Source: Oegoconia quadripuncta (taxonomy: Eukaryota; Arthropoda; Insecta; Lepidoptera; Autostichidae). From it: DNA of 64,000 bases. Numbering within the stretch: the stretch's first letter is position 1; each line of letters starts with the position of its first letter. The DNA lies in the NCBI GenBank assembly GCA_949316235.1, contig OX438758.1, forward strand, positions 2,081,772 to 2,145,771. Direction: 5' to 3'. The position numbers were made by a program, and so were the translations under genes. Below the pieces are notes generated by a model, which saw nothing but the letters and a program-made list of their open reading frames with translations, was not told the origin of the DNA and did not search any database. Below are positions 8,593 through 53,312 of the stretch, in pieces.

Positions 8593-8687
8593 CAATCAAT
8601 CAATCAATCAAATACTCTTTATTGCACAATTAACAAAAGCTACATGAAGAATACAGCGTACATCATTATTCCTGTACATTACACTTT
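8593..8687 (-). mobile_element. LINE 3' end with (ATTG)n tail inserted in copia
   Basis: Read on the minus strand this ends tgcaataaagagtatttga followed by tandem gatt units, a tail that recurs in lepidopteran non-LTR elements. It replaces copia sequence after the residues FDEAQIQYKEINKS, and its translation has no copia similarity. About 95 bp survive. Confidence 0.7.
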
Positions 8688-14400: not shown

Positions 14401-14417
14401 GGGCATAAATGGGTTAA
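14401..14417 (-). repeat. piggyBac right TIR with TTAA target
   Basis: Read on the minus strand: TTAA then CCCATTTATGCCC, a two-base-longer match to the left end. Confidence 0.8.
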
Positions 14418-14448
14418 ACTAAATATAGGTTGGGTTAGTGAAACAAAT

Positions 14449-14760
14449 GATAATAATAATAATAACTTTATTCCAAAAAAGTTTACAGTTTATCTTATAA
14501 TCTATATTAAGCTAGTAATTTAGTATTCCAATAATATAGCCCCTGTTGCCGAACTAGGTTGAAAAAACCTGTATTTCAGCATACAGTGCCCTTCCCCATA
14601 GGACAGTATCACTAGCCTTATAGTCATCATAACTAAAAACATAATAATAACATTATTGACACGTGTAGGGATACAACTTGACTCTCGACATATAAAACAA
14701 TAAAAAGCATATTGTGTCTGATGCACTATCCCAAAACGTGTCACAAATATCGATTAACTT
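14449..14760 (-). mobile_element. Non-LTR retrotransposon 3' end with (ATT)n tail
   Basis: On the minus strand the segment ends ggaataaagttattattatt, an AATAAA followed by a trinucleotide tail, the usual end of several insect LINE families. No coding sequence can be recognised in the preceding 300 bp, so the right limit is approximate. Confidence 0.5.
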
Positions 14761-14944
14761 AAAAACTAACATAAACTAAAGAATTAACAATATATGTGTA
14801 ACAAAATTGGTAAGTATAGGCGAAGTGTATTATGAGTTATGTAATTGTGTGGAAGTTCCTTTTATTTGCCGTAAAAATAATAATATATAACACTACGTTA
14901 TTATTTATATTGTGTAAGGAATGCCCATTATCTAAGTTTAAAAT

Positions 14945-15151
14945 ACTGCTTATTTATTCATTTCGAGGTTGAAGCAAGATGCCAAATGAGTCAAGAGCAT
15001 GTGCAACTCCTGAACGTGGTCGAACAGCGCCGAGATGCAGGCACAGGCGCAGGACCTTTCCTGTCGAAGGGAAATTAGGACGCCACCACTCGACGGATCC
15101 CGGAGTCGTAGTCGCTCTCGTGGACGCACGCATTCTCGACCACCAAGCGAA
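14945..15151 (+). pseudogene. Upstream part of an Arg/Ser-rich Gag-like region
   Basis: The plus strand reads DGSRSRSRSRGRTHSRPPSE and runs in frame into the RRSESRRSKARPSRSSERR tail where the tandem array starts (15152). It therefore seems to be the original 5' context of the Arg/Ser block that was later captured in every S module. Arg/Ser tails of this kind occur in some Ty3/gypsy Gag proteins, but the part upstream of about 15030 is not assignable. Confidence 0.5.
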
Positions 15152-16194
15152 CCTCGAAGATCTGAATCGAGGAGGTCGAAGGCGAGACCATCGAGATCAA
15201 GCGAGCGGCGCATCACGCCTAGTCGCTCGAGGTCAAGGCTTCCTTTGCGTTGCAATAATTCTGGTCACTTCACAAGGTGAGTGAGCAAACGGAAGTAAGT
15301 CAAGCAGGTACCGAATGTACAGAACAGAGGAGCAACAGGGTATCACCGCACACTGAGCAGTTTAATGTACACGGGATGCATGATAAATGCATGATTTAAG
15401 CAATAATACACAAAATTTGTTTTTTGAAAAGTTTATTGACACGGTAACGAATTTAATAGGCCCTAGTGATCGTGTCAGATTCCCTGTGTTAAACAACGTA
15501 ATACCAGAGTTTGATCCCCTAAGTAAGGAACAATCTGTCGATGTTTGGATCCACAAAGTTGATGAAATTGTTATAAAAGGCAAGATCACTAGAATTAGCA
15601 ATTATATCGAAAAAATTGACGCGGCGAAAGAATCGCTACAGGAGATACACGTACGACTCCATGAGGTAACCGCCATAATGAATAAGTTCGACGATATTCA
15701 AACTCTCATCGAGGTATTAGAAGTGACCTCGGACAAACAAGCACTGCATGAAGTGGAGCGCTCGAACATGGAGACGCGATATTTCAATATGAAGCACAAA
15801 TGGAAGCGCTCCTTCACGGTCCGATCGTTAGTGGGGAAATGCAATCTTGTACCGCATCACCACGTGCCAACTCCACCGTCCTCGACGACTGTTACAAGGC
15901 AAAAAAAGCCGAAATTAGATTGCCTAAGATCGAGATTCCCAAGTTTGACGGCGATATAAGAAAGTGGCCTAATTACAAGAATATCTTCTTCGACACCGTT
16001 AAAAGCGCGGACATACCACCTATCACTAAGCTACAGCATTTGAAGCTGGCCCTCACTGGAGAGGCCGCAGCCCTCGTGTCGTGTTTGTAAAAGGTACGAA
16101 AACAAAACCATTCTTGTACACTGCCTTTTAAAGGCGATTGTAAATCATGGTACCATAAATAGACATAACCTTAAAGACTTCTTAACTGTATTTC
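15152..16194 (+). repeat. Left-edge unit (partial S plus alpha), divergent
   Basis: This first unit differs from the core at many sites. It keeps the frame between the gypsy Gag start and its continuation (T-run at about 15419-15425), and keeps an Arg codon (about 15917) where core alpha modules have TGA. It has its own one-base deletion near 15770. It thus retains a less damaged version of the ancestral sequence. Confidence 0.85.
15387..15959 (+). pseudogene. Fused frame: gypsy Gag start joined to BEL Gag
   Basis: From ATG 15387 (MHDLSNNTQNLFFEKF) the frame encodes the first 60 or so residues of a Ty3/gypsy-type Gag (FPVLNNVIPEFDPLSKEQSV), then crosses at VDE/IVIKGK directly into the N-terminal coiled-coil part of a BEL/Pao-type Gag (IDAAKESLQEIHVRLHEVTA). 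The last third is out of register because of a one-base deletion near 15770. The proper BEL frame continues at 15800-16090 (LPKIEIPKFDGDIRKWPN ... LALTGEAAALVSCL, the DUF1759-type core) and then breaks again. No start or promoter evidence makes it a real gene; it is the best preserved view of the chimeric junction. Confidence 0.75.
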
Positions 16195-18510
16195 GACAAA
16201 GTGTAGACTCTCTAAAAGCCATAGAATTACCCGTAGACCAGTGGGATGTGCTGTTAGTATTCCTTATCACTCAAAAACTGGACCAGTCACTGCGCAATGC
16301 TTGGGAAACCAATAGAAAAGATGCTTCTATTCCCACTTTGATCGAGCTGTTACATTTTCTTAATATGCGCATGACTGCCTTAGAATTAATAAGTGACAAA
16401 GGCATGGAACCTAAACAACAAATAAAACCTCGAAGATCTGAATCGAGGAGGTCGAAGGCGAGACCATCGAGATCAAGCGAGCGGCGCAACAAGCCTAGTC
16501 GCTCGAGGTCAAAGCTTCCTTTGCGTTGCAATAATTCTGGTCACTTCACAAGGCGAGTGAGACAAACGGAAGTAAGTCAAGCAGGTACCGAATGTACAGA
16601 ACAGAGGAGCAACAGGGTATCACCGCACACTGAGCAGTTTAATGTACACGGGATACATGATAAATGCATGATTTAAGCAATAATACACAACATTTGATTT
16701 TGAAAAGTTTATTGACATGGTAACGAATTTAATAGGCCCTAGTGATCGTGTCAGATTCCCTGTGTTAAACAACGTAATACCAGAGTTTGATCCCCTAAGT
16801 AAGGAACAATCTGTCGATGTTTGGATCCACAAAGTTGATGAAATTGTTATAAAAGGCAAGAGCACTAGAATTAGCAATTATATCGAAAAAATTGACGCGG
16901 CGAAAGAATCGCTACAGGAGATACACGTACGACTCCATGAGGTAACCGCCTTAATGAATAAGTTCGACGATATTCAAACTCTCATCGAGGTATTAGAAGT
17001 GACCTCGGACAAACAAGCACTGCATGAAGTGGAGCGCTCGAACATGGGAGACGCGATATTTCAATATGAAGCACAAATGGAAGCGCTCCTTCACGGTCCG
17101 ATCGTTAGTGGGGAAATGCAATCTTGTACCGCATCACCACGTGCCAACTCCACCGTCCTCGACGACTGTTACAAGGCAAAGAAAGCCGAAATTTGATTGC
17201 CTAAGATCGAGATTCCCAAGTTTGATGGCGATATAAGAAAGTGGCCTAATTTCAAGAATATCTTCTTCACCACCGTTAAAAGCGCGGACATACCACCTAT
17301 CACTAATCTACAGCATTTGAAGCTGGCCCTCACTGGAGAGGCCGCAGCCCTCGTGTCGTGTTTGTAAAAGGTACGAAAACAAAACCATTCTTGTATACTG
17401 CCTTTTAAAGGCGATTGTAAATCATGGTACCATAAATAGACATAACCTTAAAGACTTCTTAATTGTATTTCGACAAAGTGTAGACTCTCTAAAAGCCATA
17501 GAATTACCCGTAGACCAGTGGGATGTGCTGTTAGTATTCCTTATCACTCAAAAACTGGACCAGTCACTGCGCAATGCTTGGGAAACCAATAGAAAAGATG
17601 CTTCTATTCCCACTTTGATCGAGCTGTTACATTTTCTTAATATGCGCATGACTGCCTTAGAATTAATAAGTGACAAAGGCATGGAACCTAAACAACAAAT
17701 AAAACCTTGAAGATCTGAATCGAGGAGGTCGAAGGCGAGACCATCGAGTTCAAGCGAGCGGCGCAACAAGCCTAGTCGCTCGAGGTCAAAGCTTCCTTTG
17801 CGTTGCAATAATTCTGGTCACTTCACAAGGCGAGTGAGACAAACGGAAGTAAGTCAAGCAGGTACCGAATGTACAGAACAGAGGAGCAACAGGGTATCAC
17901 CGCACACTGAGCAGTTTAATGTACACGGGATACATGATAAATGCATGATTTAAGCAATAATACACAAAATTTGATTTTGAAAAGTTTATTGACATGGTAA
18001 CGAATTTAATAGGCCCTAGTGATCGTGTCAGATTCCCTGTGTTAAACAACGTAATACCAGAGTTTGATCCCCTAAGTAAGGAACAATCTGTCGATGTTTG
18101 GATCCACAAAGTTGATGAATGTGCTCAGATTTATGGGTGGAACGATAGGTAGATTGTTCATTACGCTTTGCCGAAACTTATTGGAGTTGCGAGGACCTGG
18201 TACCAAGGTTTGCCATCACTGTTGTTTAGCTGGTCCGCATGGAAATAAAAATTAAGAGCATCCTTCCCTACCAGAGATACTCGTAATTATGCAGAGTTAT
18301 TGACAGAAATGATGAATAAAAAGGTGCGTTTTGGAGAGTCTTTAGAAATTTATTATTATTCTAAGATGACTCTTCTGAACAGGTGTCAGATTTCTGGTAA
18401 ACGAGCTGTGGATTGTTTGGTAGCAGACATAGAGGATCGTGGTGTAAGATTAGGAGCACAGAGGTCTCCGAGCCAGAACAGGTACTGAAATTTTTGAAAA
18501 CTGTTAAGGT

Positions 18511-18828
18511 AGGGCAAGATAGAAGTTCAGGAGATTCATCACGGCCTAGAGAGAAAGATAGACGTGCTAATTACACAAACAATAACGGCAACCCACCAAT
18601 CGGCAACAAACTCGATACTTCACAGAAATCCTCTAGACAGTTAGTTTGTTATAACTGCAATATAGAATTAGGGCAAGATAGAAGTTCAGGAGATTCATCA
18701 CGGCCTAGAGAGAAAGATAGAGGTGCTAATTACACAAACAATAACGGCAACCCATCAATCGGCAACAAATTCGATACTTCACAGAAATCCTCTAGACAGT
18801 TAGTTTGTTATAACTGCAACGAGTCGGG
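18511..18828 (+). repeat. 159-bp in-frame duplication inside beta
   Basis: A segment beginning agggcaagatagaagttcag is repeated at 18511 and 18670, a 159-bp (53-codon) period. The first copy ends before a complete zinc knuckle (CYNCNIELGQ); the second completes it (CYNCNESGHPFYRC). The duplication is present in every full beta module, so it predates the amplification. Confidence 0.9.
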
Positions 18829-18942
18829 CCATCCCTTCTATCGCTGTCCTAAGCCCAAGTAGCAATGTACAAAGTGTAAACCTGATAATAATATTGTTTA
18901 GAATGTATCTAAATGTCTAAATAATAAAAAATATCTAAATGT

Positions 18943-19590
18943 GACAAAGTGTAGACTCTCTAAAAGCCATAGAATTACCCGTAGACCAGTGGGATGTGCT
19001 GTTAGTATTCCTTATCACTCAAAAACTGGACCAGTCACTGCGCAATGCTTGGGAAACCAATAGAAAAGATGCTTCTATTCCCACTTTGATCGAGCTGTTA
19101 CATTTTCTTAATATGCGCATGACTGCCTTAGAATTAATAAGTGACAAAGGCATGGAACCTAAACAACAAATAAAACCTCGAAGATCTGAATCGAGGAGGT
19201 CGAAGGCGAGACCATCGAGATCAAGCGAGCGGCGCAACAAGCCTAGTCGCTCGAGGTCAAAGCTTCCTTTGCGTTGCAATAATTCTGGTCACTTCACAAG
19301 GCGAGTGAGACAAACGGAAGTAAGTCAAGCAGGTACCGAATGTACAGAACAGAGGAGCAACAGGGTATCACCGCACACTGAGCAGTTTAATGTACACGGG
19401 ATACATGATAAATGCATGATTTAAGCAATAATACACAACATTTGATTTTGAAAAGTTTATTGACATGGTAACGAATTTAATAGGCCCTAGTGATCGTGTC
19501 AGATTCCCTGTGTTAAACAACGTAATACCAGAGTTTGATCCCCTAAGTAAGGAACAATCTGTCGATGTTTGGATCCACAAAGTTGATGAA
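18943..19590 (+). repeat. Module S (reference copy)
   Basis: S has three parts: the C-terminal part of a BEL Gag (AIELPVDQWDVLLVFLITQK ... ISDKGMEPKQQIK); an Arg/Ser-rich tail with a CNNSGHFTRR end; and, after a stop, the start of a gypsy Gag (NLIGPSDRVRFPVLNNVIPE ... WIHKVDE). Two linked variants exist: S after beta usually reads gagatcaag and S after alpha gagttcaag; S before alpha reads cacaacattt and S before beta cacaaaattt. These tags make crossovers inside S visible. Confidence 0.9.
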
Positions 19591-20219
19591 ATTGTTATAA
19601 AAGGCAAGAGCACTAGAATTAGCAATTATATCGAAAAAATTGACGCGGCGAAAGAATCGCTACAGGAGATACACGTACGACTCCATGAGGTAACCGCCTT
19701 AATGAATAAGTTCGACGATATTCAAACTCTCATCGAGGTATTAGAAGTGACCTCGGACAAACAAGCACTGCATGAAGTGGAGCGCTCGAACATGGGAGAC
19801 GCGATATTTCAATATGAAGCACAAATGGAAGCGCTCCTTCACGGTCCGATCGTTAGTGGGGAAATGCAATCTTGTACCGCATCACCACGTGCCAACTCCA
19901 CCGTCCTCGACGACTGTTACAAGGCAAAGAAAGCCGAAATTTGATTGCCTAAGATCGAGATTCCCAAGTTTGATGGCGATATAAGAAAGTGGCCTAATTT
20001 CAAGAATATCTTCTTCACCACCGTTAAAAGCGCGGACATACCACCTATCACTAATCTACAGCATTTGAAGCTGGCCCTCACTGGAGAGGCCGCAGCCCTC
20101 GTGTCGTGTTTGTAAAAGGTACGAAAACAAAACCATTCTTGTATACTGCCTTTTAAAGGCGATTGTAAATCATGGTACCATAAATAGACATAACCTTAAA
20201 GACTTCTTAATTGTATTTC
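19591..20219 (+). pseudogene. Module alpha: BEL/Pao Gag N-terminal half (reference copy)
   Basis: The module encodes STRISNYIEKIDAAKESLQE, an amphipathic N-terminal region, then NMGDAIFQYEAQMEALLHG, and the DUF1759-type core LPKIEIPKFDGDIRKWPNF ... LKLALTGEAAALVSCL. A TGA separates KKAEI from LPKIE (19942-19944), and a one-base slip follows SCL, after which the code continues (RYENKTILV ...) into S. Both lesions are identical in all core copies. The other alpha modules start at 15567, 16843, 22339, 25087, 27835, 30583, 33331, 36079, 38827, 41575, 42852, 45600 and 46877. Confidence 0.9.
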
Positions 20220-20867
20220 GACAAAGTGTAGACTCTCTAAAAGCCATAGAATTACCCGTAGACCAGTGGGATGTGCTGTTAGTATTCCTTATCACTCAAA
20301 AACTGGACCAGTCACTGCGCAATGCTTGGGAAACCAATAGAAAAGATGCTTCTATTCCCACTTTGATCGAGCTGTTACATTTTCTTAATATGCGCATGAC
20401 TGCCTTAGAATTAATAAGTGACAAAGGCATGGAACCTAAACAACAAATAAAACCTTGAAGATCTGAATCGAGGAGGTCGAAGGCGAGACCATCGAGTTCA
20501 AGCGAGCGGCGCAACAAGCCTAGTCGCTCGAGGTCAAAGCTTCCTTTGCGTTGCAATAATTCTGGTCACTTCACAAGGCGAGTGAGACAAACGGAAGTAA
20601 GTCAAGCAGGTACCGAATGTACAGAACAGAGGAGCAACAGGGTATCACCGCACACTGAGCAGTTTAATGTACACGGGATACATGATAAATGCATGATTTA
20701 AGCAATAATACACAAAATTTGATTTTGAAAAGTTTATTGACATGGTAACGAATTTAATAGGCCCTAGTGATCGTGTCAGATTCCCTGTGTTAAACAACGT
20801 AATACCAGAGTTTGATCCCCTAAGTAAGGAACAATCTGTCGATGTTTGGATCCACAAAGTTGATGAA

Positions 20868-21690
20868 TGTGCTCAGATTTATGGGTGGAACGATAGGTAG
20901 ATTGTTCATTACGCTTTGCCGAAACTTATTGGAGTTGCGAGGACCTGGTACCAAGGTTTGCCATCACTGTTGTTTAGCTGGTCCGCATGGAAATAAAAAT
21001 TAAGAGCATCCTTCCCTACCAGAGATACTCGTAATTATGCAGAGTTATTGACAGAAATGATGAATAAAAAGGTGCGTTTTGGAGAGTCTTTAGAAATTTA
21101 TTATTATTCTAAGATGACTCTTCTGAACAGGTGTCAGATTTCTGGTAAACGAGCTGTGGATTGTTTGGTAGCAGACATAGAGGATCGTGGTGTAAGATTA
21201 GGAGCACAGAGGTCTCCGAGCCAGAACAGGTACTGAAATTTTTGAAAACTGTTAAGGTAGGGCAAGATAGAAGTTCAGGAGATTCATCACGGCCTAGAGA
21301 GAAAGATAGACGTGCTAATTACACAAACAATAACGGCAACCCACCAATCGGCAACAAACTCGATACTTCACAGAAATCCTCTAGACAGTTAGTTTGTTAT
21401 AACTGCAATATAGAATTAGGGCAAGATAGAAGTTCAGGAGATTCATCACGGCCTAGAGAGAAAGATAGAGGTGCTAATTACACAAACAATAACGGCAACC
21501 CACCAATCGGCAACAAATTCGATACTTCACAGAAATCCTCTAGACAGTTAGTTTGTTATAACTGCAACGAGTCGGGCCATCCCTTCTATCGCTGTCCTAA
21601 GCCCAAGTAGCAATGTACAAAGTGTAAACCTGATAATAATATTGTTTAGAATGTATCTAAATGTCTAAATAATAAAAAATATCTAAATGT
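20868..21690 (+). pseudogene. Module beta: Ty3/gypsy Gag with zinc knuckle (reference copy)
   Basis: It continues the gypsy Gag of S: QIYGWNDR, stop, IVHYALPKLIGVARTWYQGL, stop, then ELLTEMMNKKVRFGESLEIY and KMTLLNRCQISGKRAVDCLV, a frameshift, EPEQVLKFLKTVK, the duplicated linker, and a complete CCHC knuckle (CYNCNESGHPFYRC). The two stops and the frameshift are common to all copies. The last about 80 bp are AT-rich and lead into the next S. Other full beta modules start at 18120, 23616, 26364, 29112, 31860, 34608, 37356, 40104, 44129 and 48154. Confidence 0.9.
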
Positions 21691-24600
21691 GACAAAGTGT
21701 AGACTCTCTAAAAGCCATAGAATTACCCGTAGACCAGTGGGATGTGCTGTTAGTATTCCTTATCACTCAAAAACTGGACCAGTCACTGCGCAATGCTTGG
21801 GAAACCAATAGAAAAGATGCTTCTATTCCCACTTTGATCGAGCTGTTACATTTTCTTAATATGCGCATGACTGCCTTAGAATTAATAAGTGACAAAGGCA
21901 TGGAACCTAAACAACAAATAAAACCTCGAAGATCTGAATCGAGGAGGTCGAAGGCGAGACCATCGAGATCAAGCGAGCGGCGCAACAAGCCTAGTCGCTC
22001 GAGGTCAAAGCTTCCTTTGCGTTGCAATAATTCTGGTCACTTCACAAGGCGAGTGAGACAAACGGAAGTAAGTCAAGCAGGTACCGAATGTACAGAACAG
22101 AGGAGCAACAGGGTATCACCGCACACTGAGCAGTTTAATGTACACGGGATACATGATAAATGCATGATTTAAGCAATAATACACAACATTTGATTTTGAA
22201 AAGTTTATTGACATGGTAACGAATTTAATAGGCCCTAGTGATCGTGTCAGATTCCCTGTGTTAAACAACGTAATACCAGAGTTTGATCCCCTAAGTAAGG
22301 AACAATCTGTCGATGTTTGGATCCACAAAGTTGATGAAATTGTTATAAAAGGCAAGAGCACTAGAATTAGCAATTATATCGAAAAAATTGACGCGGCGAA
22401 AGAATCGCTACAGGAGATACACGTACGACTCCATGAGGTAACCGCCTTAATGAATAAGTTCGACGATATTCAAACTCTCATCGAGGTATTAGAAGTGACC
22501 TCGGACAAACAAGCACTGCATGAAGTGGAGCGCTCGAACATGGGAGACGCGATATTTCAATATGAAGCACAAATGGAAGCGCTCCTTCACGGTCCGATCG
22601 TTAGTGGGGAAATGCAATCTTGTACCGCATCACCACGTGCCAACTCCACCGTCCTCGACGACTGTTACAAGGCAAAGAAAGCCGAAATTTGATTGCCTAA
22701 GATCGAGATTCCCAAGTTTGATGGCGATATAAGAAAGTGGCCTAATTTCAAGAATATCTTCTTCACCACCGTTAAAAGCGCGGACATACCACCTATCACT
22801 AATCTACAGCATTTGAAGCTGGCCCTCACTGGAGAGGCCGCAGCCCTCGTGTCGTGTTTGTAAAAGGTACGAAAACAAAACCATTCTTGTATACTGCCTT
22901 TTAAAGGCGATTGTAAATCATGGTACCATAAATAGACATAACCTTAAAGACTTCTTAATTGTATTTCGACAAAGTGTAGACTCTCTAAAAGCCATAGAAT
23001 TACCCGTAGACCAGTGGGATGTGCTGTTAGTATTCCTTATCACTCAAAAACTGGACCAGTCACTGCGCAATGCTTGGGAAACCAATAGAAAAGATGCTTC
23101 TATTCCCACTTTGATCGAGCTGTTACATTTTCTTAATATGCGCATGACTGCCTTAGAATTAATAAGTGACAAAGGCATGGAACCTAAACAACAAATAAAA
23201 CCTCGAAGATCTGAATCGAGGAGGTCGAAGGCGAGACCATCGAGTTCAAGCGAGCGGCGCAACAAGCCTAGTCGCTCGAGGTCAAAGCTTCCTTTGCGTT
23301 GCAATAATTCTGGTCACTTCACAAGGCGAGTGAGACAAACGGAAGTAAGTCAAGCAGGTACCGAATGTACAGAACAGAGGAGCAACAGGGTATCACCGCA
23401 CACTGAGCAGTTTAATGTACACGGGATACATGATAAATGCATGATTTAAGCAATAATACACAAAATTTGATTTTGAAAAGTTTATTGACATGGTAACGAA
23501 TTTAATAGGCCCTAGTGATCGTGTCAGATTCCCTGTGTTAAACAACGTAATACCAGAGTTTGATCCCCTAAGTAAGGAACAATCTGTCGATGTTTGGATC
23601 CACAAAGTTGATGAATGTGCTCAGATTTATGGGTGGAACGATAGGTAGATTGTTCATTACGCTTTGCCGAAACTTATTGGAGTTGCGAGGACCTGGTACC
23701 AAGGTTTGCCATCACTGTTGTTTAGCTGGTCCGCATGGAAATAAAAATTAAGAGCATCCTTCCCTACCAGAGATACTCGTAATTATGCAGAGTTATTGAC
23801 AGAAATGATGAATAAAAAGGTGCGTTTTGGAGAGTCTTTAGAAATTTATTATTATTCTAAGATGACTCTTCTGAACAGGTGTCAGATTTCTGGTAAACGA
23901 GCTGTGGATTGTTTGGTAGCAGACATAGAGGATCGTGGTGTAAGATTAGGAGCACAGAGGTCTCCGAGCCAGAACAGGTACTGAAATTTTTGAAAACTGT
24001 TAAGGTAGGGCAAGATAGAAGTTCAGGAGATTCATCACGGCCTAGAGAGAAAGATAGACGTGCTAATTACACAAACAATAACGGCAACCCACCAATCGGC
24101 AACAAACTCGATACTTCACAGAAATCCTCTAGACAGTTAGTTTGTTATAACTGCAATATAGAATTAGGGCAAGATAGAAGTTCAGGAGATTCATCACGGC
24201 CTAGAGAGAAAGATAGAGGTGCTAATTACACAAACAATAACGGCAACCCACCAATCGGCAACAAATTCGATACTTCACAGAAATCCTCTAGACAGTTAGT
24301 TTGTTATAACTGCAACGAGTCGGGCCATCCCTTCTATCGCTGTCCTAAGCCCAAGTAGCAATGTACAAAGTGTAAACCTGATAATAATATTGTTTAGAAT
24401 GTATCTAAATGTCTAAATAATAAAAAATATCTAAATGTGACAAAGTGTAGACTCTCTAAAAGCCATAGAATTACCCGTAGACCAGTGGGATGTGCTGTTA
24501 GTATTCCTTATCACTCAAAAACTGGACCAGTCACTGCGCAATGCTTGGGAAACCAATAGAAAAGATGCTTCTATTCCCACTTTGATCGAGCTGTTACATT

Positions 24601-27600
24601 TTCTTAATATGCGCATGACTGCCTTAGAATTAATAAGTGACAAAGGCATGGAACCTAAACAACAAATAAAACCTCGAAGATCTGAATCGAGGAGGTCGAA
24701 GGCGATACCATCGAGATCAAGCGAGCGGCGCAACAAGCCTAGTCGCTCGAGGTCAAAGCTTCCTTTGCGTTGCAATAATTCTGGTCACTTCACAAGGCGA
24801 GTGAGACAAACGGAAGTAAGTCAAGCAGGTACCGAATGTACAGAACAGAGGAGCAACAGGGTATCACCGCACACTGAGCAGTTTAATGTACACGGGATAC
24901 ATGATAAATGCATGATTTAAGCAATAATACACAACATTTGATTTTGAAAAGTTTATTGACATGGTAACGAATTTAATAGGCCCTAGTGATCGTGTCAGAT
25001 TCCCTGTGTTAAACAACGTAATACCAGAGTTTGATCCCCTAAGTAAGGAACAATCTGTCGATGTTTGGATCCACAAAGTTGATGAAATTGTTATAAAAGG
25101 CAAGAGCACTAGAATTAGCAATTATATCGAAAAAATTGACGCGGCGAAAGAATCGCTACAGGAGATACACGTACGACTCCATGAGGTAACCGCCTTAATG
25201 AATAAGTTCGACGATATTCAAACTCTCATCGAGGTATTAGAAGTGACCTCGGACAAACAAGCACTGCATGAAGTGGAGCGCTCGAACATGGGAGACGCGA
25301 TATTTCAATATGAAGCACAAATGGAAGCGCTCCTTCACGGTCCGATCGTTAGTGGGGAAATGCAATCTTGTACCGCATCACCACGTGCCAACTCCACCGT
25401 CCTCGACGACTGTTACAAGGCAAAGAAAGCCGAAATTTGATTGCCTAAGATCGAGATTCCCAAGTTTGATGGCGATATAAGAAAGTGGCCTAATTTCAAG
25501 AATATCTTCTTCACCACCGTTAAAAGCGCGGACATACCACCTATCACTAATCTACAGCATTTGAAGCTGGCCCTCACTGGAGAGGCCGCAGCCCTCGTGT
25601 CGTGTTTGTAAAAGGTACGAAAACAAAACCATTCTTGTATACTGCCTTTTAAAGGCGATTGTAAATCATGGTACCATAAATAGACATAACCTTAAAGACT
25701 TCTTAATTGTATTTCGACAAAGTGTAGACTCTCTAAAAGCCATAGAATTACCCGTAGACCAGTGGGATGTGCTGTTAGTATTCCTTATCACTCAAAAACT
25801 GGACCAGTCACTGCGCAATGCTTGGGAAACCAATAGAAAAGATGCTTCTATTCCCACTTTGATCGAGCTGTTACATTTTCTTAATATGCGCATGACTGCC
25901 TTAGAATTAATAAGTGACAAAGGCATGGAACCTAAACAACAAATAAAACCTCGAAGATCTGAATCGAGGAGGTCGAAGGCGAGACCATCGAGTTCAAGCG
26001 AGCGGCGCAACAAGCCTAGTCGCTCGAGGTCAAAGCTTCCTTTGCGTTGCAATAATTCTGGTCACTTCACAAGGCGAGTGAGACAAACGGAAGTAAGTCA
26101 AGCAGGTACCGAATGTACAGAACAGAGGAGCAACAGGGTATCACCGCACACTGAGCAGTTTAATGTACACGGGATACATGATAAATGCATGATTTAAGCA
26201 ATAATACACAAAATTTGATTTTGAAAAGTTTATTGACATGGTAACGAATTTAATAGACCCTAGTGATCGTGTCAGATTCCCTGTGTTAAACAACGTAATA
26301 CCAGAGTTTGATCCCCTAAGTAAGGAACAATCTGTCGATGTTTGGATCCACAAAGTTGATGAATGTGCTCAGATTTATGGGTGGAACGATAGGTAGATTG
26401 TTCATTACGCTTTGCCGAAACTTATTGGAGTTGCGAGGACCTGGTACCAAGGTTTGCCATCACTGTTGTTTAGCTGGTCCGCATGGAAATAAAAATTAAG
26501 AGCATCCTTCCCTACCAGAGATACTCGTAATTATGCAGAGTTATTGACAGAAATGATGAATAAAAAGGTGCGTTTTGGAGAGTCTTTAGAAATTTATTAT
26601 TATTCTAAGATGACTCTTCTGAACAGGTGTCAGATTTCTGGTAAACGAGCTGTGGATTGTTTGGTAGCAGACATAGAGGATCGTGGTGTAAGATTAGGAG
26701 CACAGAGGTCTCCGAGCCAGAACAGGTACTGAAATTTTTGAAAACTGTTAAGGTAGGGCAAGATAGAAGTTCAGGAGATTCATCACGGCCTAGAGAGAAA
26801 GATAGACGTGCTAATTACACAAACAATAACGGCAACCCACCAATCGGCAACAAACTCGATACTTCACAGAAATCCTCTAGACAGTTAGTTTGTTATAACT
26901 GCAATATAGAATTAGGGCAAGATAGAAGTTCAGGAGATTCATCACGGCCTAGAGAGAAAGATAGAGGTGCTAATTACACAAACAATAACGGCAACCCACC
27001 AATCGGCAACAAATTCGATACTTCACAGAAATCCTCTAGACAGTTAGTTTGTTATAACTGCAACGAGTCGGGCCATCCCTTCTATCGCTGTCCTAAGCCC
27101 AAGTAGCAATGTACAAAGTGTAAACCTGATAATAATATTGTTTAGAATGTATCTAAATGTCTAAATAATAAAAAATATCTAAATGTGACAAAGTGTAGAC
27201 TCTCTAAAAGCCATAGAATTACCCGTAGACCAGTGGGATGTGCTGTTAGTATTCCTTATCACTCAAAAACTGGACCAGTCACTGCGCAATGCTTGGGAAA
27301 CCAATAGAAAAGATGCTTCTATTCCCACTTTGATCGAGCTGTTACATTTTCTTAATATGCGCATGACTGCCTTAGAATTAATAAGTGACAAAGGCATGGA
27401 ACCTAAACAACAAATAAAACCTCGAAGATCTGAATCGAGGAGGTCGAAGGCGAGACCATCGAGATCAAGCGAGCGGCGCAACAAGCCTAGTCGCTCGAGG
27501 TCAAAGCTTCCTTTGCGTTGCAATAATTCTGGTCACTTCACAAGGCGAGTGAGACAAACGGAAGTAAGTCAAGCAGGTACCGAATGTACAGAACAGAGGA

Positions 27601-39600: not shown

Positions 39601-40926
39601 GATCGAGCTGTTACATTTTCTTAATATGCGCATGACTGCCTTAGAATTAATAAGTGACAAAGGCATGGAACCTAAACAACAAATAAAACCTCGAAGATCT
39701 GAATCGAGGAGGTCGAAGGCGAGACCATCGAGTTCAAGCGAGCGGCGCAACAAGCCTAGTCGCTCGAGGTCAAAGCTTCCTTTGCGTTGCAATAATTCTG
39801 GTCACTTCACAAGGCGAGTGAGACAAACGGAAGTAAGTCAAGCAGGTACCGAATGTACAGAACAGAGGAGCAACAGGGTATCACCGCACACTGAGCAGTT
39901 TAATGTACACGGGATACATGATAAATGCATGATTTAAGCAATAATACACAAAATTTGATTTTGAAAAGTTTATTGACATGGTAACGAATTTAATAGGCCC
40001 TAGTGATCGTGTCAGATTCCCTGTGTTAAACAACGTAATACCAGAGTTTGATCCCCTAAGTAAGGAACAATCTGTCGATGTTTGGATCCACAAAGTTGAT
40101 GAATGTGCTCAGATTTATGGGTGGAACGATAGGTAGATTGTTCATTACGCTTTGCCGAAACTTATTGGAGTTGCGAGGACCTGGTACCAAGGTTTGCCAT
40201 CACTGTTGTTTAGCTGGTCCGCATGGAAATAAAAATTAAGAGCATCCTTCCCTACCAGAGATACTCGTAATTATGCAGAGTTATTGACAGAAATGATGAA
40301 TAAAAAGGTGCGTTTTGGAGAGTCTTTAGAAATTTATTATTATTCTAAGATGACTCTTCTGAACAGGTGTCAGATTTCTGGTAAACGAGCTGTGGATTGT
40401 TTGGTAGCAGACATAGAGGATCGTGGTGTAAGATTAGGAGCACAGAGGTCTCCGAGCCAGAACAGGTACTGAAATTTTTGAAAACTGTTAAGGTAGGGCA
40501 AGATAGAAGTTCAGGAGATTCATCACGGCCTAGAGAGAAAGATAGACGTGCTAATTACACAAACAATAACGGCAACCCACCAATCGGCAACAAACTCGAT
40601 ACTTCACAGAAATCCTCTAGACAGTTAGTTTGTTATAACTGCAATATAGAATTAGGGCAAGATAGAAGTTCAGGAGATTCATCACGGCCTAGAGAGAAAG
40701 ATAGAGGTGCTAATTACACAAACAATAACGGCAACCCACCAATCGGCAACAAATTCGATACTTCACAGAAATCCTCTAGACAGTTAGTTTGTTATAACTG
40801 CAACGAGTCGGGCCATCCCTTCTATCGCTGTCCTAAGCCCAAGTAGCAATGTACAAAGTGTAAACCTGATAATAATATTGTTTAGAATGTATCTAAATGT
40901 CTAAATAATAAAAAATATCTAAATGT

Positions 40927-43900
40927 GACAAAGTGTAGACTCTCTAAAAGCCATAGAATTACCCGTAGACCAGTGGGATGTGCTGTTAGTATTCCTTATC
41001 ACTCAAAAACTGGACCAGTCACTGCGCAATGCTTGGGAAACCAATAGAAAAGATGCTTCTATTCCCACTTTGATCGAGCTGTTACATTTTCTTAATATGC
41101 GCATGACTGCCTTAGAATTAATAAGTGACAAAGGCATGGAACCTAAACAACAAATAAAACCGCGAAGATCTGAATCGAGGAGGTCGAAGGCGAGACCATC
41201 GAGATCAAGCGAGCGGCGCAACAAGCCTAGTCGCTCGAGGTCAAAGCTTCCTTTGCGTTGCAATAATTCTGGTCACTTCACAAGGCGAGTGAGACAAACG
41301 GAAGTAAGTCAAGCAGGTACCGAATGTACAGAACAGAGGAGCAACAGGGTATCACCGCACACTGAGCAGTTTAATGTACACGGGATACATGATAAATGCA
41401 TGATTTAAGCAATAATACACAACATTTGATTTTGAAAAGTTTATTGACATGGTAACGAATTTAATAGGCCCTAGTGATCGTGTCAGATTCCCTGTGTTAA
41501 ACAACGTAATACCAGAGTTTGATCCCCTAAGTAAGGAACAATCTGTCGATGTTTGGATCCACAAAGTTGATGAAATTGTTATAAAAGGCAAGAGCACTAG
41601 AATTAGCAATTATATCGAAAAAATTGACGCGGCGAAAGAATCGCTACAGGAGATACACGTACGACTCCATGAGGTAACCGCCTTAATGAATAAGTTCGAC
41701 GATATTCAAACTCTCATCGAGGTATTAGAAGTGACCTCGGACAAACAAGCACTGCATGAAGTGGAGCGCTCGAACATGGGAGACGCGATATTTCAATATG
41801 AAGCACAAATGGAAGCGCTCCTTCACGGTCCGATCGTTAGTGGGGAAATGCAATCTTGTACCGCATCACCACGTGCCAACTCCACCGTCCTCGACGACTG
41901 TTACAAGGCAAAGAAAGCCGAAATTTGATTGCCTAAGATCGAGATTCCCAAGTTTGATGGCGATATAAGAAAGTGGCCTAATTTCAAGAATATCTTCTTC
42001 ACCACCGTTAAAAGCGCGGACATACCACCTATCACTAATCTACAGCATTTGAAGCTGGCCCTCACTGGAGAGGCCGCAGCCCTCGTGTCGTGTTTGTAAA
42101 AGGTACGAAAACAAAACCATTCTTGTATACTGCCTTTTAAAGGCGATTGTAAATCATGGTACCATAAATAGACATAACCTTAAAGACTTCTTAATTGTAT
42201 TTCGACAAAGTGTAGACTCTCTAAAAGCCATAGAATTACCCGTAGACCAGTGGGATGTGCTGTTAGTATTCCTTATCACTCAAAAACTGGACCAGTCACT
42301 GCGCAATGCTTGGGAAACCAATAGAAAAGATGCTTCTATTCCCACTTTGATCGAGCTGTTACATTTTCTTAATATGCGCATGACTGCCTTAGAATTAATA
42401 AGTGACAAAGGCATGGAACCTAAACAACAAATAAAACCTCGAAGATCTGAATCGAGGAGGTCGAAGGCGAGACCATCGAGTTCAAGCGAGCGGCGAAACA
42501 AGCCTAGTCGCTCGAGGTCAAAGCTTCCTTTGCGTTGCAATAATTCTGGTCACTTCACAAGGCGAGTGAGACAAACGGAAGTAAGTCAAGCAGGTACCGA
42601 ATGTACAGAACAGAGGAGCAACAGGGTATCACCGCACACTGAGCAGTTTAATGTACACGGGATACATGATAAATGCATGATTTAAGCAATAATACACAAC
42701 ATTTGATTTTGAAAAGTTTATTGACATGGTAACGAATTTAATAGGCCCTAGTGATCGTGTCAGATTCCCTGTGTTAAACAACGTAATACCAGAGTTTGAT
42801 CCCCTAAGTAAGGAACAATCTGTCGATGTTTGGATCCACAAAGTTGATGAAATTGTTATAAAAGGCAAGAGCACTAGAATTAGCAATTATATCGAAAAAA
42901 TTGACGCGGCGAAAGAATCGCTACAGGAGATACACGTACGACTCCATGAGGTAACCGCCTTAATGAATAAGTTCGACGATATTCAAACTCTCATCGAGGT
43001 ATTAGAAGTGACCTCGGACAAACAAGCACTGCATGAAGTGGAGCGCTCGAACATGGGAGACGCGATATTTCAATATGAAGCACAAATGGAAGCGCTCCTT
43101 CACGGTCCGATCGTTAGTGGGGAAATGCAATCTTGTACCGCATCACCACGTGCCAACTCCACCGTCCTCGACGACTGTTACAAGGCAAAGAAAGCCGAAA
43201 TTTGATTGCCTAAGATCGAGATTCCCAAGTTTGATGGCGATATAAGAAAGTGGCCTAATTTCAAGAATATCTTCTTCACCACCGTTAAAAGCGCGGACAT
43301 ACCACCTATCACTAATCTACAGCATTTGAAGCTGGCCCTCACTGGAGAGGCCGCAGCCCTCGTGTCGTGTTTGTAAAAGGTACGAAATCAAAACCATTCT
43401 TGTATACTGCCTTTTAAAGGCGATTGTAAATCATGGTACCATAAATAGACATAACCTTAAAGACTTCTTAATTGTATTTCGACAAAGTGTAGACTCTCTA
43501 AAAGCCATAGAATTACCCGTAGACCAGTGGGATGTGCTGTTAGTATTCCTTATCACTCAAAAACTGGACCAGTCACTGCGCAATGCTTGGGAAACCAATA
43601 GAAAAGATGCTTCTATTCCCACTTTGATCGAGCTGTTACATTTTCTTAATATGCGCATGACTGCCTTAGAATTAATAAGTGACAAAGGCATGGAACCTAA
43701 ACAACAAATAAAACCTCGAAGATCTGAATCGAGGAGGTCGAAGGCGAGACCATCGAGTTCAAGCGAGCGGCGCAACAAGCCTAGTCGCTCGAGGTCAAAG
43801 CTTCCTTTGCGTTGCAATAATTCTGGTCACTTCACAAGGCGAGTGAGACAAACGGAAGTAAGTCAAGCAGGTACCGAATGTACAGAACAGAGGAGCAACA

Positions 43901-44951
43901 GGGTATCACCGCACACTGAGCAGTTTAATGTACACGGGATACATGATAAATGCATGATTTAAGCAATAATACACAAAATTTGATTTTGAAAAGTTTATTG
44001 ACATGGTAACGAATTTAATAGGCCCTAGTGATCGTGTCAGATTCCCTGTGTTAAACAACGTAATACCAGAGTTTGATCCCCTAAGTAAGGAACAATCTGT
44101 CGATGTTTGGATCCACAAAGTTGATGAATGTGCTCAGATTTATGGGTGGAACGATAGGTAGATTGTTCATTACGCTTTGCCGAAACTTATTGGAGTTGCG
44201 AGGACCTGGTACCAAGGTTTGCCATCACTGTTGTTTAGCTGGTCCGCATGGAAATAAAAATTAAGAGCATCCTTCCCTACCAGAGATACTCGTAATTATG
44301 CAGAGTTATTGACAGAAATGATGAATAAAAAGGTGCGTTTTGGAGAGTCTTTAGAAATTTATTATTATTCTAAGATGACTCTTCTGAACAGGTGTCAGAT
44401 TTCTGGTAAACGAGCTGTGGATTGTTTGGTAGCAGACATAGAGGATCGTGGTGTAAGATTAGGAGCACAGAGGTCTCCGAGCCAGAACAGGTACTGAAAT
44501 TTTTGAAAACTGTTAAGGTAGGGCAAGATAGAAGTTCAGGAGATTCATCACGGCCTAGAGAGAAAGATAGACGTGCTAATTACACAAACAATAACGGCAA
44601 CCCACCAATCGGCAACAAACTCGATACTTCACAGAAATCCTCTAGACAGTTAGTTTGTTATAACTGCAATATAGAATTAGGGCAAGATAGAAGTTCAGGA
44701 GATTCATCACGGCCTAGAGAGAAAGATAGAGGTGCTAATTACACAAACAATAACGGCAACCCACCAATCGGCAACAAATTCGATACTTCACAGAAATCCT
44801 CTAGACAGTTAGTTTGTTATAACTGCAACGAGTCGGGCCATCCCTTCTATCGCTGTCCTAAGCCCAAGTAGCAATGTACAAAGTGTAAACCTGATAATAA
44901 TATTGTTTAGAATGTATCTAAATGTCTAAATAATAAAAAATATCTAAATGT
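40927..44951 (+). repeat. 4025-bp superunit 1 (S-alpha-S-alpha-S-beta)
   Basis: An extra S-alpha is inserted. Private changes are T-to-G at 41162, C-to-A at 42496 and A-to-T at 43388. The middle S (42204) combines the gagttcaag tag with the cacaacattt tag, which marks a crossover inside S. Confidence 0.93.
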
Positions 44952-47900
44952 GACAAAGTGTAGACTCTCTAAAAGCCATAGAATTACCCGTAGACCAGTG
45001 GGATGTGCTGTTAGTATTCCTTATCACTCAAAAACTGGACCAGTCACTGCGCAATGCTTGGGAAACCAATAGAAAAGATGCTTCTATTCCCACTTTGATC
45101 GAGCTGTTACATTTTCTTAATATGCGCATGACTGCCTTAGAATTAATAAGTGACAAAGGCATGGAACCTAAACAACAAATAAAACCGCGAAGATCTGAAT
45201 CGAGGAGGTCGAAGGCGAGACCATCGAGATCAAGCGAGCGGCGCAACAAGCCTAGTCGCTCGAGGTCAAAGCTTCCTTTGCGTTGCAATAATTCTGGTCA
45301 CTTCACAAGGCGAGTGAGACAAACGGAAGTAAGTCAAGCAGGTACCGAATGTACAGAACAGAGGAGCAACAGGGTATCACCGCACACTGAGCAGTTTAAT
45401 GTACACGGGATACATGATAAATGCATGATTTAAGCAATAATACACAACATTTGATTTTGAAAAGTTTATTGACATGGTAACGAATTTAATAGGCCCTAGT
45501 GATCGTGTCAGATTCCCTGTGTTAAACAACGTAATACCAGAGTTTGATCCCCTAAGTAAGGAACAATCTGTCGATGTTTGGATCCACAAAGTTGATGAAA
45601 TTGTTATAAAAGGCAAGAGCACTAGAATTAGCAATTATATCGAAAAAATTGACGCGGCGAAAGAATCGCTACAGGAGATACACGTACGACTCCATGAGGT
45701 AACCGCCTTAATGAATAAGTTCGACGATATTCAAACTCTCATCGAGGTATTAGAAGTGACCTCGGACAAACAAGCACTGCATGAAGTGGAGCGCTCGAAC
45801 ATGGGAGACGCGATATTTCAATATGAAGCACAAATGGAAGCGCTCCTTCACGGTCCGATCGTTAGTGGGGAAATGCAATCTTGTACCGCATCACCACGTG
45901 CCAACTCCACCGTCCTCGACGACTGTTACAAGGCAAAGAAAGCCGAAATTTGATTGCCTAAGATCGAGATTCCCAAGTTTGATGGCGATATAAGAAAGTG
46001 GCCTAATTTCAAGAATATCTTCTTCACCACCGTTAAAAGCGCGGACATACCACCTATCACTAATCTACAGCATTTGAAGCTGGCCCTCACTGGAGAGGCC
46101 GCAGCCCTCGTGTCGTGTTTGTAAAAGGTACGAAAACAAAACCATTCTTGTATACTGCCTTTTAAAGGCGATTGTAAATCATGGTACCATAAATAGACAT
46201 AACCTTAAAGACTTCTTAATTGTATTTCGACAAAGTGTAGACTCTCTAAAAGCCATAGAATTACCCGTAGACCAGTGGGATGTGCTGTTAGTATTCCTTA
46301 TCACTCAAAAACTGGACCAGTCACTGCGCAATGCTTGGGAAACCAATAGAAAAGATGCTTCTATTCCCACTTTGATCGAGCTGTTACATTTTCTTAATAT
46401 GCGCATGACTGCCTTAGAATTAATAAGTGACAAAGGCATGGAACCTAAACAACAAATAAAACCTCGAAGATCTGAATCGAGGAGGTCGAAGGCGAGACCA
46501 TCGAGTTCAAGCGAGCGGCGAAACAAGCCTAGTCGCTCGAGGTCAAAGCTTCCTTTGCGTTGCAATAATTCTGGTCACTTCACAAGGCGAGTGAGACAAA
46601 CGGAAGTAAGTCAAGCAGGTACCGAATGTACAGAACAGAGGAGCAACAGGGTATCACCGCACACTGAGCAGTTTAATGTACACGGGATACATGATAAATG
46701 CATGATTTAAGCAATAATACACAACATTTGATTTTGAAAAGTTTATTGACATGGTAACGAATTTAATAGGCCCTAGTGATCGTGTCAGATTCCCTGTGTT
46801 AAACAACGTAATACCAGAGTTTGATCCCCTAAGTAAGGAACAATCTGTCGATGTTTGGATCCACAAAATTGATGAAATTGTTATAAAAGGCAAGAGCACT
46901 AGAATTAGCAATTATATCGAAAAAATTGACGCGGCGAAAGAATCGCTACAGGAGATACACGTACGACTCCATGAGGTAACCGCCTTAATGAATAAGTTCG
47001 ACGATATTCAAACTCTCATCGAGGTATTAGAAGTGACCTCGGACAAACAAGCACTGCATGAAGTGGAGCGCTCGAACATGGGAGACGCGATATTTCAATA
47101 TGAAGCACAAATGGAAGCGCTCCTTCACGGTCCGATCGTTAGTGGGGAAATGCAATCTTGTACCGCATCACCACGTGCCAACTCCACCGTCCTCGACGAC
47201 TGTTACAAGGCAAAGAAAGCCGAAATTTGATTGCCTAAGATCGAGATTCCCAAGTTTGATGGCGATATAAGAAAGTGGCCTAATTTCAAGAATATCTTCT
47301 TCACCACCGTTAAAAGCGCGGACATACCACCTATCACTAATCTACAGCATTTGAAGCTGGCCCTCACTGGAGAGGCCGCAGCCCTCGTGTCGTGTTTGTA
47401 AAAGGTACGAAATCAAAACCATTCTTGTATACTGCCTTTTAAAGGCGATTGTAAATCATGGTACCATAAATAGACATAACCTTAAAGACTTCTTAATTGT
47501 ATTTCGACAAAGTGTAGACTCTCTAAAAGCCATAGAATTACCCGTAGACCAGTGGGATGTGCTGTTAGTATTCCTTATCACTCAAAAACTGGACCAGTCA
47601 CTGCGCAATGCTTGGGAAACCAATAGAAAAGATGCTTCTATTCCCACTTTGATCGAGCTGTTACATTTTCTTAATATGCGCATGACTGCCTTAGAATTAA
47701 TAAGTGACAAAGGCATGGAACCTAAACAACAAATAAAACCTCGAAGATCTGAATCGAGGAGGTCGAAGGCGAGACCATCGAGATCAAGCGAGCGGCGCAA
47801 CAAGCCTAGTCGCTCGAGGTCAAAGCTTCCTTTGCGTTGCAATAATTCTGGTCACTTCACAAGGCGAGTGAGACAAACGGAAGTAAGTCAAGCAGGTACC

Positions 47901-48958
47901 GAATGTACAGAACAGAGGAGCAACAGGGTATCACCGCACACTGAGCAGTTTAATGTACACGGGATACATGATAAATGCATGATTTAAGCAATAATACACA
48001 AAATTTGATTTTGAAAAGTTTATTGACATGGTAACGAATTTAATAGGCCCTAGTGATCGTGTCAGATTCCCTGTGTTAAACAACGTAATACCAGAGTTTG
48101 ATCCCCTAAGTAAGGAACAATCTGTCGATGTTTGGATCCACAAAGTTGATGAATGTGCTCAGATTTATGGGTGGAACGATAGGTAGATTGTTCATTACGC
48201 TTTGCCGAGGACCTGGTACCAAGGTTTGCCATCACTGTTGTTTAGCTGGTCCGCATGGAAATAAAAATTAAGAGCATCCTTCCCTACCAGAGATACTCTT
48301 AATTATGCAGAGTTATTGACAGAAATGATGAATAAAAAGGTGCGTTTTGGAGAGTCTTTAGAAATTTATTATTATTCTAAGATGACTCTTCTGAACAGGT
48401 GTCAGATTTCTGGTAAACGAGCTGTGGATTGTTTGGTAGCAGACATAGAGGATCGTGGTGTAAGATTAGGAGCACAGAGGTCTCCGAGCCAGAACAGGTA
48501 CTGAAATTTTTGAAAACTGTTAAGGTAGGGCAAGATAGAAGTTCAGGAGATTCATCACGGCCTAGAGAGAAAGATAGACGTGCTAATTACACAAACAATA
48601 ACGGCAACCCACCAATCGGCAACAAACTCGATACTTCACAGAAATCCTCTAGACAGTTAGTTTGTTATAACTGCAATATAGAATTAGGGCAAGATAGAAG
48701 TTCAGGAGATTCATCACGGCCTAGAGAGAAAGATAGAGGTGCTAATTACACAAACAATAACGGCAACCCACCAATCGGCAACAAATTCGATACTTCACAG
48801 AAATCCTCTAGACAGTTAGTTTGTTATAACTGCAACGAGTCGGGCCATCCCTTCTATCGCTGTCCTAAGCCCAAGTAGCAATGTACAAAGTGTAAACCTG
48901 ATAATAATATTGTTTAGAATGTATCTAAATGTCTAAATAATAAAAAATATCTAAATGT
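44952..48958 (+). repeat. 4025-bp superunit 2 with an 18-bp deletion
   Basis: It repeats all three private changes of superunit 1 at exactly +4025 bp (45187, 46521, 47413), so it is a direct duplicate of it. It then acquired its own changes, including an 18-bp deletion near 48208 flanked by short cga repeats. Confidence 0.93.
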
Positions 48959-50065
48959 GACAAAGTGTAGACTCTCTAAAAGCCATAGAATTACCCGTAG
49001 ACCAGTGGGATGTGCTGTTAGTATTCCTTATCACTCAAAAACTGGACCAGTCACTGCGCAATGCTTGGGAAACCAATAGAAAAGATGCTTCTATTCCCAC
49101 TTTGAACGAGCTGTTACATTTTCTTGTGACAAAGGCATGGAACCTAAACAACAAATAAAACCTCGAAGATCTGAATCGAGGAGGTCGAAAGCGAGACCAT
49201 CGAGATCAAGCGAGCGGCGCATCACGCCTAGTCGCTCGGGGTCAAGGCTTCCTTTGCGTTGCAATAATTCTGGTCACTTCACAAGGAGAGTGAGACAACC
49301 GGAAGTAAGTCAAGCAGGTACCGAATGTACAGAACAGAGGAGCAACAGGGTATCACCGCACACTGAGCAGTTTAATGTATACGGGATGCATGATAAATGC
49401 ATGATTTAAGCAATAATACACAAAATTTGTTTTTTGAAAAGTTTATTGACATGGTAACGAATTTAATAGGCCCTAGTGATCGTGTCAGATTCCCTGTGTT
49501 AAACAACGTAATACCAGAGTTTGATCCCCTAAGTAAGGAACAATCTGTCGATGTTTGGATCCACAAAGTTGATGAATGTGCTCAGATTTATGGGTGGAAC
49601 GATAGGTAGATTGTTCATTACGCTTTGCCGAAACTTATTGGAGTTGCGAGGACCTGGTACCATGGTTTGCCATCACTGTTGTTTAGCTGGTCCGCATGGA
49701 AATAAAAATTAAGAGAATCCTTCCCTACCAGAGATAATTATGCAGAGTTATTGACAGAAATGATGAATAAAAAGGTGCGTTTTGGAGAGTCTTTAGAAAT
49801 TTATTATTATTCTAAGATGAATCTTCTGAACAGGTGTCAGATTTCTGGTAAACGAGCTGTGGATTGTTTGGTAGCAGACATAGAGGATCGTGGTGCAAGA
49901 TTAGTAGCACAGAGGTCTCCGAGCCAGAACAGGTACTGAAATTTTTGAAAACTGTTAAGGTAGGGCAAGATAAAAGTTCAGGAGATTCATCACGGCCTAG
50001 AGAGAAAGATAGACGTGCTAATTACAACAACGGCAACCCACCAATCGGCAACAAATTCGATACTT
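48959..50065 (+). repeat. Right-edge unit (S plus partial beta), divergent
   Basis: This S has a 31-bp deletion near 49125 and shares edge-specific variants with the left-edge unit, including gcatcacgcctag and the long T-run that keeps the gypsy Gag start in frame (ORF 49397-49609). Beta has a 6-bp deletion near 50026 and stops at 50065 inside the zinc-knuckle linker. Confidence 0.88.
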
Positions 50066-50346
50066 TATTACATTGGCTCATACACAGAGGAGATGCATTT
50101 ATATTAGACAGAGGATTTAGAGATAGCGTTTATGACATCCAGTCGCTTGGCTATGAGGCTCACATACCTCCAACAAAAGACAGACATGCTACCCAACTCA
50201 CCACTGAACAGGCAAATAAGTCGCGTTTAGTAACGATATGCAGGTGGGTGGTAGAAGCCGTGAACGGAAAGTTCAAAAATAGGTTTAAACTTTTAAGACA
50301 GACATATTTTAACAGAGCTTTACCGAATATGTTCGTTGAGTTTTGA
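49864..50346 (+). pseudogene. Chimeric frame: satellite gag tail fused to DDE transposase
   Basis: An open frame crosses the right end of the array: the gypsy Gag linker (EPEQVLKFLKTVKVGQDK ... NPPIGNKFDT) reads directly into a DDE transposase (LLHWLIHRGDAFILDRGFRD). The junction lies in the shared word gatactt near 50059-50065. There is no ATG start at 49864, so expression is doubtful and the fusion is most likely an accident of the join. Confidence 0.7.
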
Positions 50347-52981: not shown

Positions 52982-53312
52982 TATGTTCAGAAACAAAATA
53001 ATAGTAATGATATTTTTTTAATTAACAATAGGTACTTAAGGTAATAATACATTTCATGTTGGAAATTTAGTATTCTATTTTAGGGAATTTCAGTCGTTAA
53101 TATGGCAACATTGATTAATAGTGAACGGGGAATTCCCGAATAATCTTTGTTCTGGTACAGTATAGGGGGAAATTACCTATTTGAACGAAGGCTATAGAAG
53201 AGCTTTGCTTTGTTTCATTCATTTCAATTAATTAGTTCCTTTTGGCGAGACGTCTTTTCACGCTTTCATCCTCTTTATAATCAAGTGTTAAATATAGTGA
53301 ACGGTGTGCATT

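Follow-up and report, generated by a model that had tools for sequence, protein, structure and literature searches.

A tandem array in Oegoconia quadripuncta that probably arose within a decayed Ty3/gypsy gag and carries a piece of BEL/Pao gag

The genome of the lepidopteran Oegoconia quadripuncta contains a tandem array of about 35 kb whose repeat unit combines gag sequences of two retrotransposon superfamilies, Ty3/gypsy and BEL/Pao. The array was analysed in a window of 64,000 nucleotides, the whole stretch of DNA under study (assembly GCA_949316235.1, contig OX438758.1, here called C17, positions 2081772-2145771), and is known from the assembly sequence, which comprises 622.6 Mb in 45 contigs. 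With a probability of about 0.72, we read it as a young, non-coding tandem array that was born within a decayed Ty3/gypsy gag through a history of four steps.

The array spans positions 15150-50065 of the window, against 15152-50065 in an earlier note on this DNA, and is composed of 26 S, 14 alpha and 12 beta modules on the forward strand. The lengths of 648 bp (S), 629 bp (alpha) and 823 bp (beta) and the offsets of 1277, 1471 and 2748 bp, all given in that note, were reproduced by self-comparison. With alpha written as a and beta as b, the module order is SaSaSb(SaSb)x8 SaSaSb SaSaSb Sb. S-alpha and S-beta, whose regular alternation had been proposed, are indeed the building blocks, but the alternation is not strict, as three instances of S-alpha-S-alpha are seen, one at the left edge and two close to the right end. 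The units stand head to tail and are homogenised, as expected of a satellite or other tandem repeat. At the left edge, module calls and comparison with a related locus on contig C20 place a diverged N-terminal part of gypsy gag (G1', S bases 232-648) at 15150-15566, followed at 15567-16194 by an alpha copy (B1'), a piece of BEL gag which differs by 1.8% from the inner copies. The inner homogenised array covers 16195-49125, with a main unit of 2748 bp (S-alpha-S-beta) and a variant of 4025 bp (S-alpha-S-alpha-S-beta). The right edge, at 49126-50065, holds a diverged S' that starts from base 199 and a beta' (bases 1-501) cut at 50065. Thus the array opens with a partial S and closes with a partial beta, and its last S is a composite that has lost about 31 bp. 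All 11 full betas carry their own 159-bp tandem duplication in the gypsy zinc-knuckle region (18510-18819 in one of them). This duplication, the divergence of the outermost copies and the continuation of gypsy gag to the left of the array had gone unmentioned in the earlier note.

The origin of the modules can be read from the sister locus on C20. When the interval 14560-15560 was used as query, 40 of 241 candidates were scored, of which 26 were the window's own array or flank and 13 matched 14560-14850 only. The remaining match, C20:1385088-1385712, covers 14852-15560 at 78% and belongs to a locus, C20:1380700-1385712, where this gypsy gag too is arranged in tandem. This array has a BEL-free unit of 962 bp in about 4.7 copies, three of them complete and 98.4-98.7% alike, and its gag runs without interruption from the 5' region through G1 to G2. 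In the window, C20 sequence covers 16435-16842, 17712-18661 and 18669-18880 of the interval 16426-18942; the parts without a C20 match are 16843-17711 (869 bp, the BEL stretch), a final stretch of 62 bp and two small gaps (9 bp and 7 bp). Since C20 lacks 16843-17711, the division within S falls at about base 231, and alpha plus S bases 1-231 make up the BEL block, 860 bp in all. By this comparison S, taken earlier as one of three modules, is rejected as a natural unit: its bases 1-231 are read as the end of a BEL/Pao gag piece and its bases 232-648 as the N-terminal part of a Ty3/gypsy gag. The two gag sources behind the three-module scheme stand, but S is half BEL and half gypsy. One such BEL block lies at 16843-17702, where C20 coverage ends at 16842 and restarts at 17712, and an uninterrupted G1-G2 gag (S bases 232-648 plus beta) follows at 17703-18942, with 18881-18942 as the 62 bp that have no C20 counterpart. 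The same 417 bp of gypsy gag flank the BEL piece on both sides, which constitutes a duplication. Instead of the end-to-end joining of two gags supposed earlier, the BEL piece lies inside the gypsy gag. Because C20 shows the uninterrupted order without the BEL block, the founder is best described as gypsy gag plus a BEL fragment plus the 417-bp duplication. The tandem joints also differ: on C20 the gypsy tail is joined directly to the gypsy N-terminal part, while on C17 it is joined to the middle of the BEL piece, which suggests that the two loci were tandemised separately. Near the sister array, a tandem array of 140-bp units adjoins it at C20:1378660-1380695, and further imperfect repeats, 78-93% alike at several offsets of about 1.2-1.7 kb, were seen at C20:1367007-1373228.

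Protein comparison agrees with a gypsy source for G1 and G2. Among 260 candidates, 53 proteins matched the gypsy part at E<=0.001; 31 of the 53 carry an organism name, representing 17 species which we take to be Lepidoptera, with the best-scoring match in Leptosia nina at 70% identity. Some of these homologues also carry PF13975, PF13650 or PF00665 and thus link the gag to a Ty3/gypsy protease or integrase. Gypsy homology crosses the joint between S and beta in all nine homologues shown (best 17976-18461, 70%) and ends 6 bp beyond the joints between S and alpha (15566 and 16842) in eight of the nine. N-termini rich in serine and arginine (SR-rich) are found in the homologues P0003 and P0004 and resemble S in its second half, as well as the left flank. 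At 14852-15149 (forward strand) lie the leader and the native 5' part of this gypsy gag, which has an SR-rich N-terminus and a possible ATG at 14979; the C20 match runs unbroken through 14852-15565 at 78%. The gypsy origin of this left flank is drawn from the DNA continuity with C20 and not from SR-rich protein matches, which are inflated because corrections for low complexity and composition were off (best E 5e-15, best minus-strand 0.009). Against solved structures, the gypsy read-through scored best with a capsid chain of Arc, but E 0.01 is too weak a match to use. A related gypsy element on C19 has the ordinary anatomy: it is bounded by identical direct repeats of 391 bp and shows, in that order, matches to gag, protease and integrase types.

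The BEL assignment comes from DUF1759 (PF03564), which we take to be a BEL/Pao gag domain. Matches to it at E 2.7e-9 and 4.1e-8, above the curated cut-off, were obtained for the final part of alpha and for the alpha-S open reading frame (ORF), and they lie on both sides of the alpha-S boundary (about 17221-17361 in alpha, 16086-16322 in the neighbouring copy). The S-only ORF at 18945-19421 scores just under the cut-off. With an ORF across the joint between S and alpha, none of 69 protein candidates reached E<=0.001; nothing was found for the BEL piece in a viral contig collection, nor for this joint in viral or genome contig collections. The earlier claim that the unit joins a Ty3/gypsy gag with a BEL/Pao gag is borne out by the 53 gypsy homologues, by the native order in the same genome and by the DUF1759 scores. 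A BEL/Pao pol with Peptidase_A17 and integrase lies on the minus strand at 3066-5246 of the window, 10 kb from the array.

The age and growth of the array are recorded in its copies. Mean divergence among inner copies is 0.28% for S (24 copies), 0.045% for alpha (13) and 0.045% for beta (11), and edge copies stand 1.6-2.0% from them; chance is no concern for the array. Six S differences, five substitutions and one 1-bp length change, are common to both edges and occur in none of the 24 inner S. Four of the six could be scored in the C20 alignment, and the edge carries the C20 state at all four; changes of the edges' own are seen in G1 at one left and five right sites where inner copies keep the C20 state. 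Because the edge S sites carry the C20 state, the inner array is, on these site patterns, derived from one mutated founder, and the edges have kept older copies which also drifted. S copies further differ by neighbour: between beta and alpha, 10 of 10 have C at 497 and A at 278, while between alpha and beta 11 of 11 have A at 497 and 10 of 11 have T at 278. The S at 42204-42851, between two alphas, is a hybrid with T at 278, as in S before beta, and C at 497, as in S before alpha, so that its left half is of one kind and its right half of the other. A second hybrid at 46229-46876, also between alphas, shares variants with it; both are on the forward strand. The 4025-bp blocks have three private variants in common (S 236G, S 293A and alpha 537T), and thus the block was duplicated afterwards. 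Likewise, the S copies at 24439 and 29935, two units apart, share 268T. The hybrids are what an exchange inside S would leave, and together with the block duplications they point to unequal exchange.

Several observations weigh against this reading. Homologue P0012 aligns beyond the joints between S and alpha, to 15677 and 16965, and no Pfam gag family matches the gypsy read-through. DUF1759 covers part of the BEL block, the remainder being called BEL by continuity and recall. No BEL parent was found by DNA, the alpha search of the assembly matching this array only, and none of 357 candidates from a public protein search with the BEL part reached E<=0.001. The right-edge beta is not simply ancestral, as the C20 state is at the edge at 3 sites, in inner copies at 4, and one site is three-way. 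The exchange argument uses two marker sites only (278 and 497); the S at 47506 precedes beta yet has A at 278, and the S at 16195, though flanked by alphas, belongs entirely to the type seen before alpha and is no hybrid.

The unit shows no sign of present coding function. Both gags of the inner units contain stops or frameshifts, and where the gypsy frames could be compared, two stop codons being omitted, the ratio of nonsynonymous to synonymous rates (dN/dS) against two C20 copies was 0.87 and 1.02 for inner C17 and 0.86 and 1.01 for the right edge, with 1.06 between C20 copies. A coding gene was rejected on the in-frame stops and these ratios near 1. Between the inner copy and the right edge, all 5 changes are nonsynonymous and none is synonymous, a number too small to interpret. 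Against C19, dS was saturated with a dN of 0.16-0.20, which suggests that the gypsy family was formerly under constraint. Scans of Rfam and for tRNA gave no matches. The array is probably without a function of its own.

Neither is the unit a complete retrotransposon. Apart from the 62-bp tail and the two small gaps, the interval 16426-18942 is C20-type gag or BEL stretch, and two long terminal repeats (LTRs) with a pol inside the unit were not found, in agreement with the earlier statement that the units are not complete elements; by the C20 comparison nested complete elements were rejected. Genome searches by module, which skip very common words, gave for alpha 14 matches assembly-wide, all 14 candidates scored and all within this array. 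For beta, all 20 candidates were scored, with 12 matches in this array, 5 on C20 and 3 distant (C19 69%, C6 66%, C4 64%). High copy number at several loci, as in a satellite family, was not found, and a widespread family was rejected with alpha in one array and 17 of 20 beta matches in two. The 'new satellite family' proposed earlier is thus overstated, and on the assembly searches this looks like a single-locus array.

In the history that we favour, a gypsy gag with its own 5' region stood at the C17 site, as the sister locus shows. An 860-bp BEL/Pao gag piece would then have come to lie within it, giving a founder G1-BEL-G1-G2; the structure is shown, and the route may have been template switching between co-copied RNAs or DNA repair with template jumps. 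Exchange between the two G1 copies could have produced 1277-bp G1-BEL repeats, and an illegitimate joint between the gypsy gag tail and the middle of the BEL piece the 2748-bp unit. Finally, unequal exchange or conversion, with the 648-bp S as homology, would have amplified one mutated unit and homogenised its copies, a step supported by the copy comparisons, with older copies left at the edges and the 4025-bp variant formed by exchange inside S.

The last step could instead have run through an extrachromosomal circle, with the inner array produced from one unit by rolling-circle amplification and returned to the ancestral locus through homologous exchange within S. The switch from edge to inner copies between the alpha end and S base 295 on the left and near S base 199 on the right, in register, and the tracing of inner copies to one mutated founder fit such an event, but the internal blocks (the 4025-bp pair with its private variants, and 24439/29935) show later in-place exchange. 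We regard this as possible though unlikely, and the circle and in-place routes are compatible with each other. The second step may also have happened elsewhere, in a virus-like particle, so that a mobile gypsy-BEL-gypsy gag chimera was inserted ready-made and then amplified. Two gags in sense orientation with a duplication fit RNA template switching, which is described for LTR elements in Triticeae in the available text of PMC1950507; however, no second copy was found, the alpha matches all being in this array (14/14), and the C20 locus has the gypsy 5' region in common but lacks BEL, making this improbable.

Retention of the array as a source of small RNA, similar to a PIWI-interacting RNA cluster, against two retrotransposon families would suit the surroundings, where pieces of several types of element occur on both strands. 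The DNA search found no close BEL relative as a target, however, and we consider such a role very unlikely. Near-identical units make copy number uncertain in any assembly, but an assembly artefact is highly improbable given the distinct, ordered variants in the units, the diverged edges, a contig of 20.6 Mb and the finding of a sister locus where the gypsy part is also in tandem. Throughout the array there are recurrent open frames of 153-210 codons, as a cluster of domesticated gag-like genes would show, yet with stops and frameshifts in both gags of inner units and a dN/dS of about 1 between C17 and C20, such a cluster is hardly credible.

On sequence comparison, the array sits in the remains of a gypsy copy which is itself broken by other elements: left of the array, the gypsy 5' region is interrupted by a copia element, a piggyBac-like stretch and a repeat at 99%. 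An upstream region common to the sister locus lies at 10950-11812 (forward strand), aligned at 10952-11292 and 11418-11812 with 81-86% identity to C20:1386527-1385773. Its left limit of 10950 is taken as the end of the copia insertion, the exact end coming from sequence reading. The copia element, with gag, integrase and reverse transcriptase domain matches (7507-10794), occupies 7504-10949 on the minus strand. Another 36 bp of the gypsy 5' region (14417-14452, forward strand, 94%, its C20 match adjoining that of 14852) are stranded between the stretch left of 14417, presumably piggyBac-like, and a young repeat. The insert 14453-14851 has no C20 counterpart, and its part 14560-14850 is judged a recently active repeat because 13 scored copies at 99% were found on nine other contigs. 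On the right, beta' stops at 50065 and a DDE_Tnp_4 transposase fragment, found by domain match at 50066-50346 (forward strand), lies outside the unit. Elsewhere in the window, 206-839 holds five copies of a 126-bp tandem repeat with long open frames on both strands, and 53301-55267 holds hAT-like transposase pieces in two overlapping frames, with DUF4371 under and the hAT dimerisation domain above the cut-off.

That satellites can arise from gag is stated by a review (PMC12628747), and related cases can be compared as far as the available text of each source goes. The rye B-chromosome satellite E3900 holds a gag-like reading-frame fragment of Ty3/gypsy (PMC9659126, PMC3648361); it is from a plant and the text seen mentions no BEL/Pao part, while here a gag of a second superfamily lies inside the first. 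The maize CRM1TR and CRM4TR arrays are wholly LTR-retrotransposon-derived, with subfamilies that include known recombinants and with gene conversion, and nested insertions were suggested as their source (PMC3648361); unlike the present array, with its coding gag from two superfamilies, they come from the LTR and untranslated region of Ty3/gypsy. In Lathyrus sativus, the Ogre-derived satellites are long arrays connected with short tandem repeats inside Ty3/gypsy (PMC7004042), but those repeats go with copies of the element and occupy a place downstream of gag-pol, whereas here the repeated sequence is gag. Lepidopteran satellites with long units, such as Cper-Sat01 (2244 bp), share kb-sized monomers, called unusual for insects (PMC8042265); a gag origin is not stated in the text seen, and they are genome-wide repeats in contrast to this single-locus array. 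In titles and abstract openings of the open PMC literature, no satellite from gags of two superfamilies was found. The kind, a gag-derived satellite, is already known, and the two-superfamily composite with a readable birth would be a fresh variation on it.

The array is most likely a by-product of recombination. The gypsy gag interval may be prone to tandemisation, since the close DNA relatives found are two arrays, on C17 and C20, with different joints; it would then have become tandem on two or more occasions, in one case after taking up a gag of another superfamily, and the tentative idea follows that the family acts as a satellite nursery. The beginnings of satellites are usually guessed from finished arrays. 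Here older edges, a BEL-free sister locus and hybrid modules coexist, and therefore the order of events from a dead gag to a 2748-bp repeat is directly testable, in an array where one tandem repeat unit can combine two retrotransposon superfamilies.

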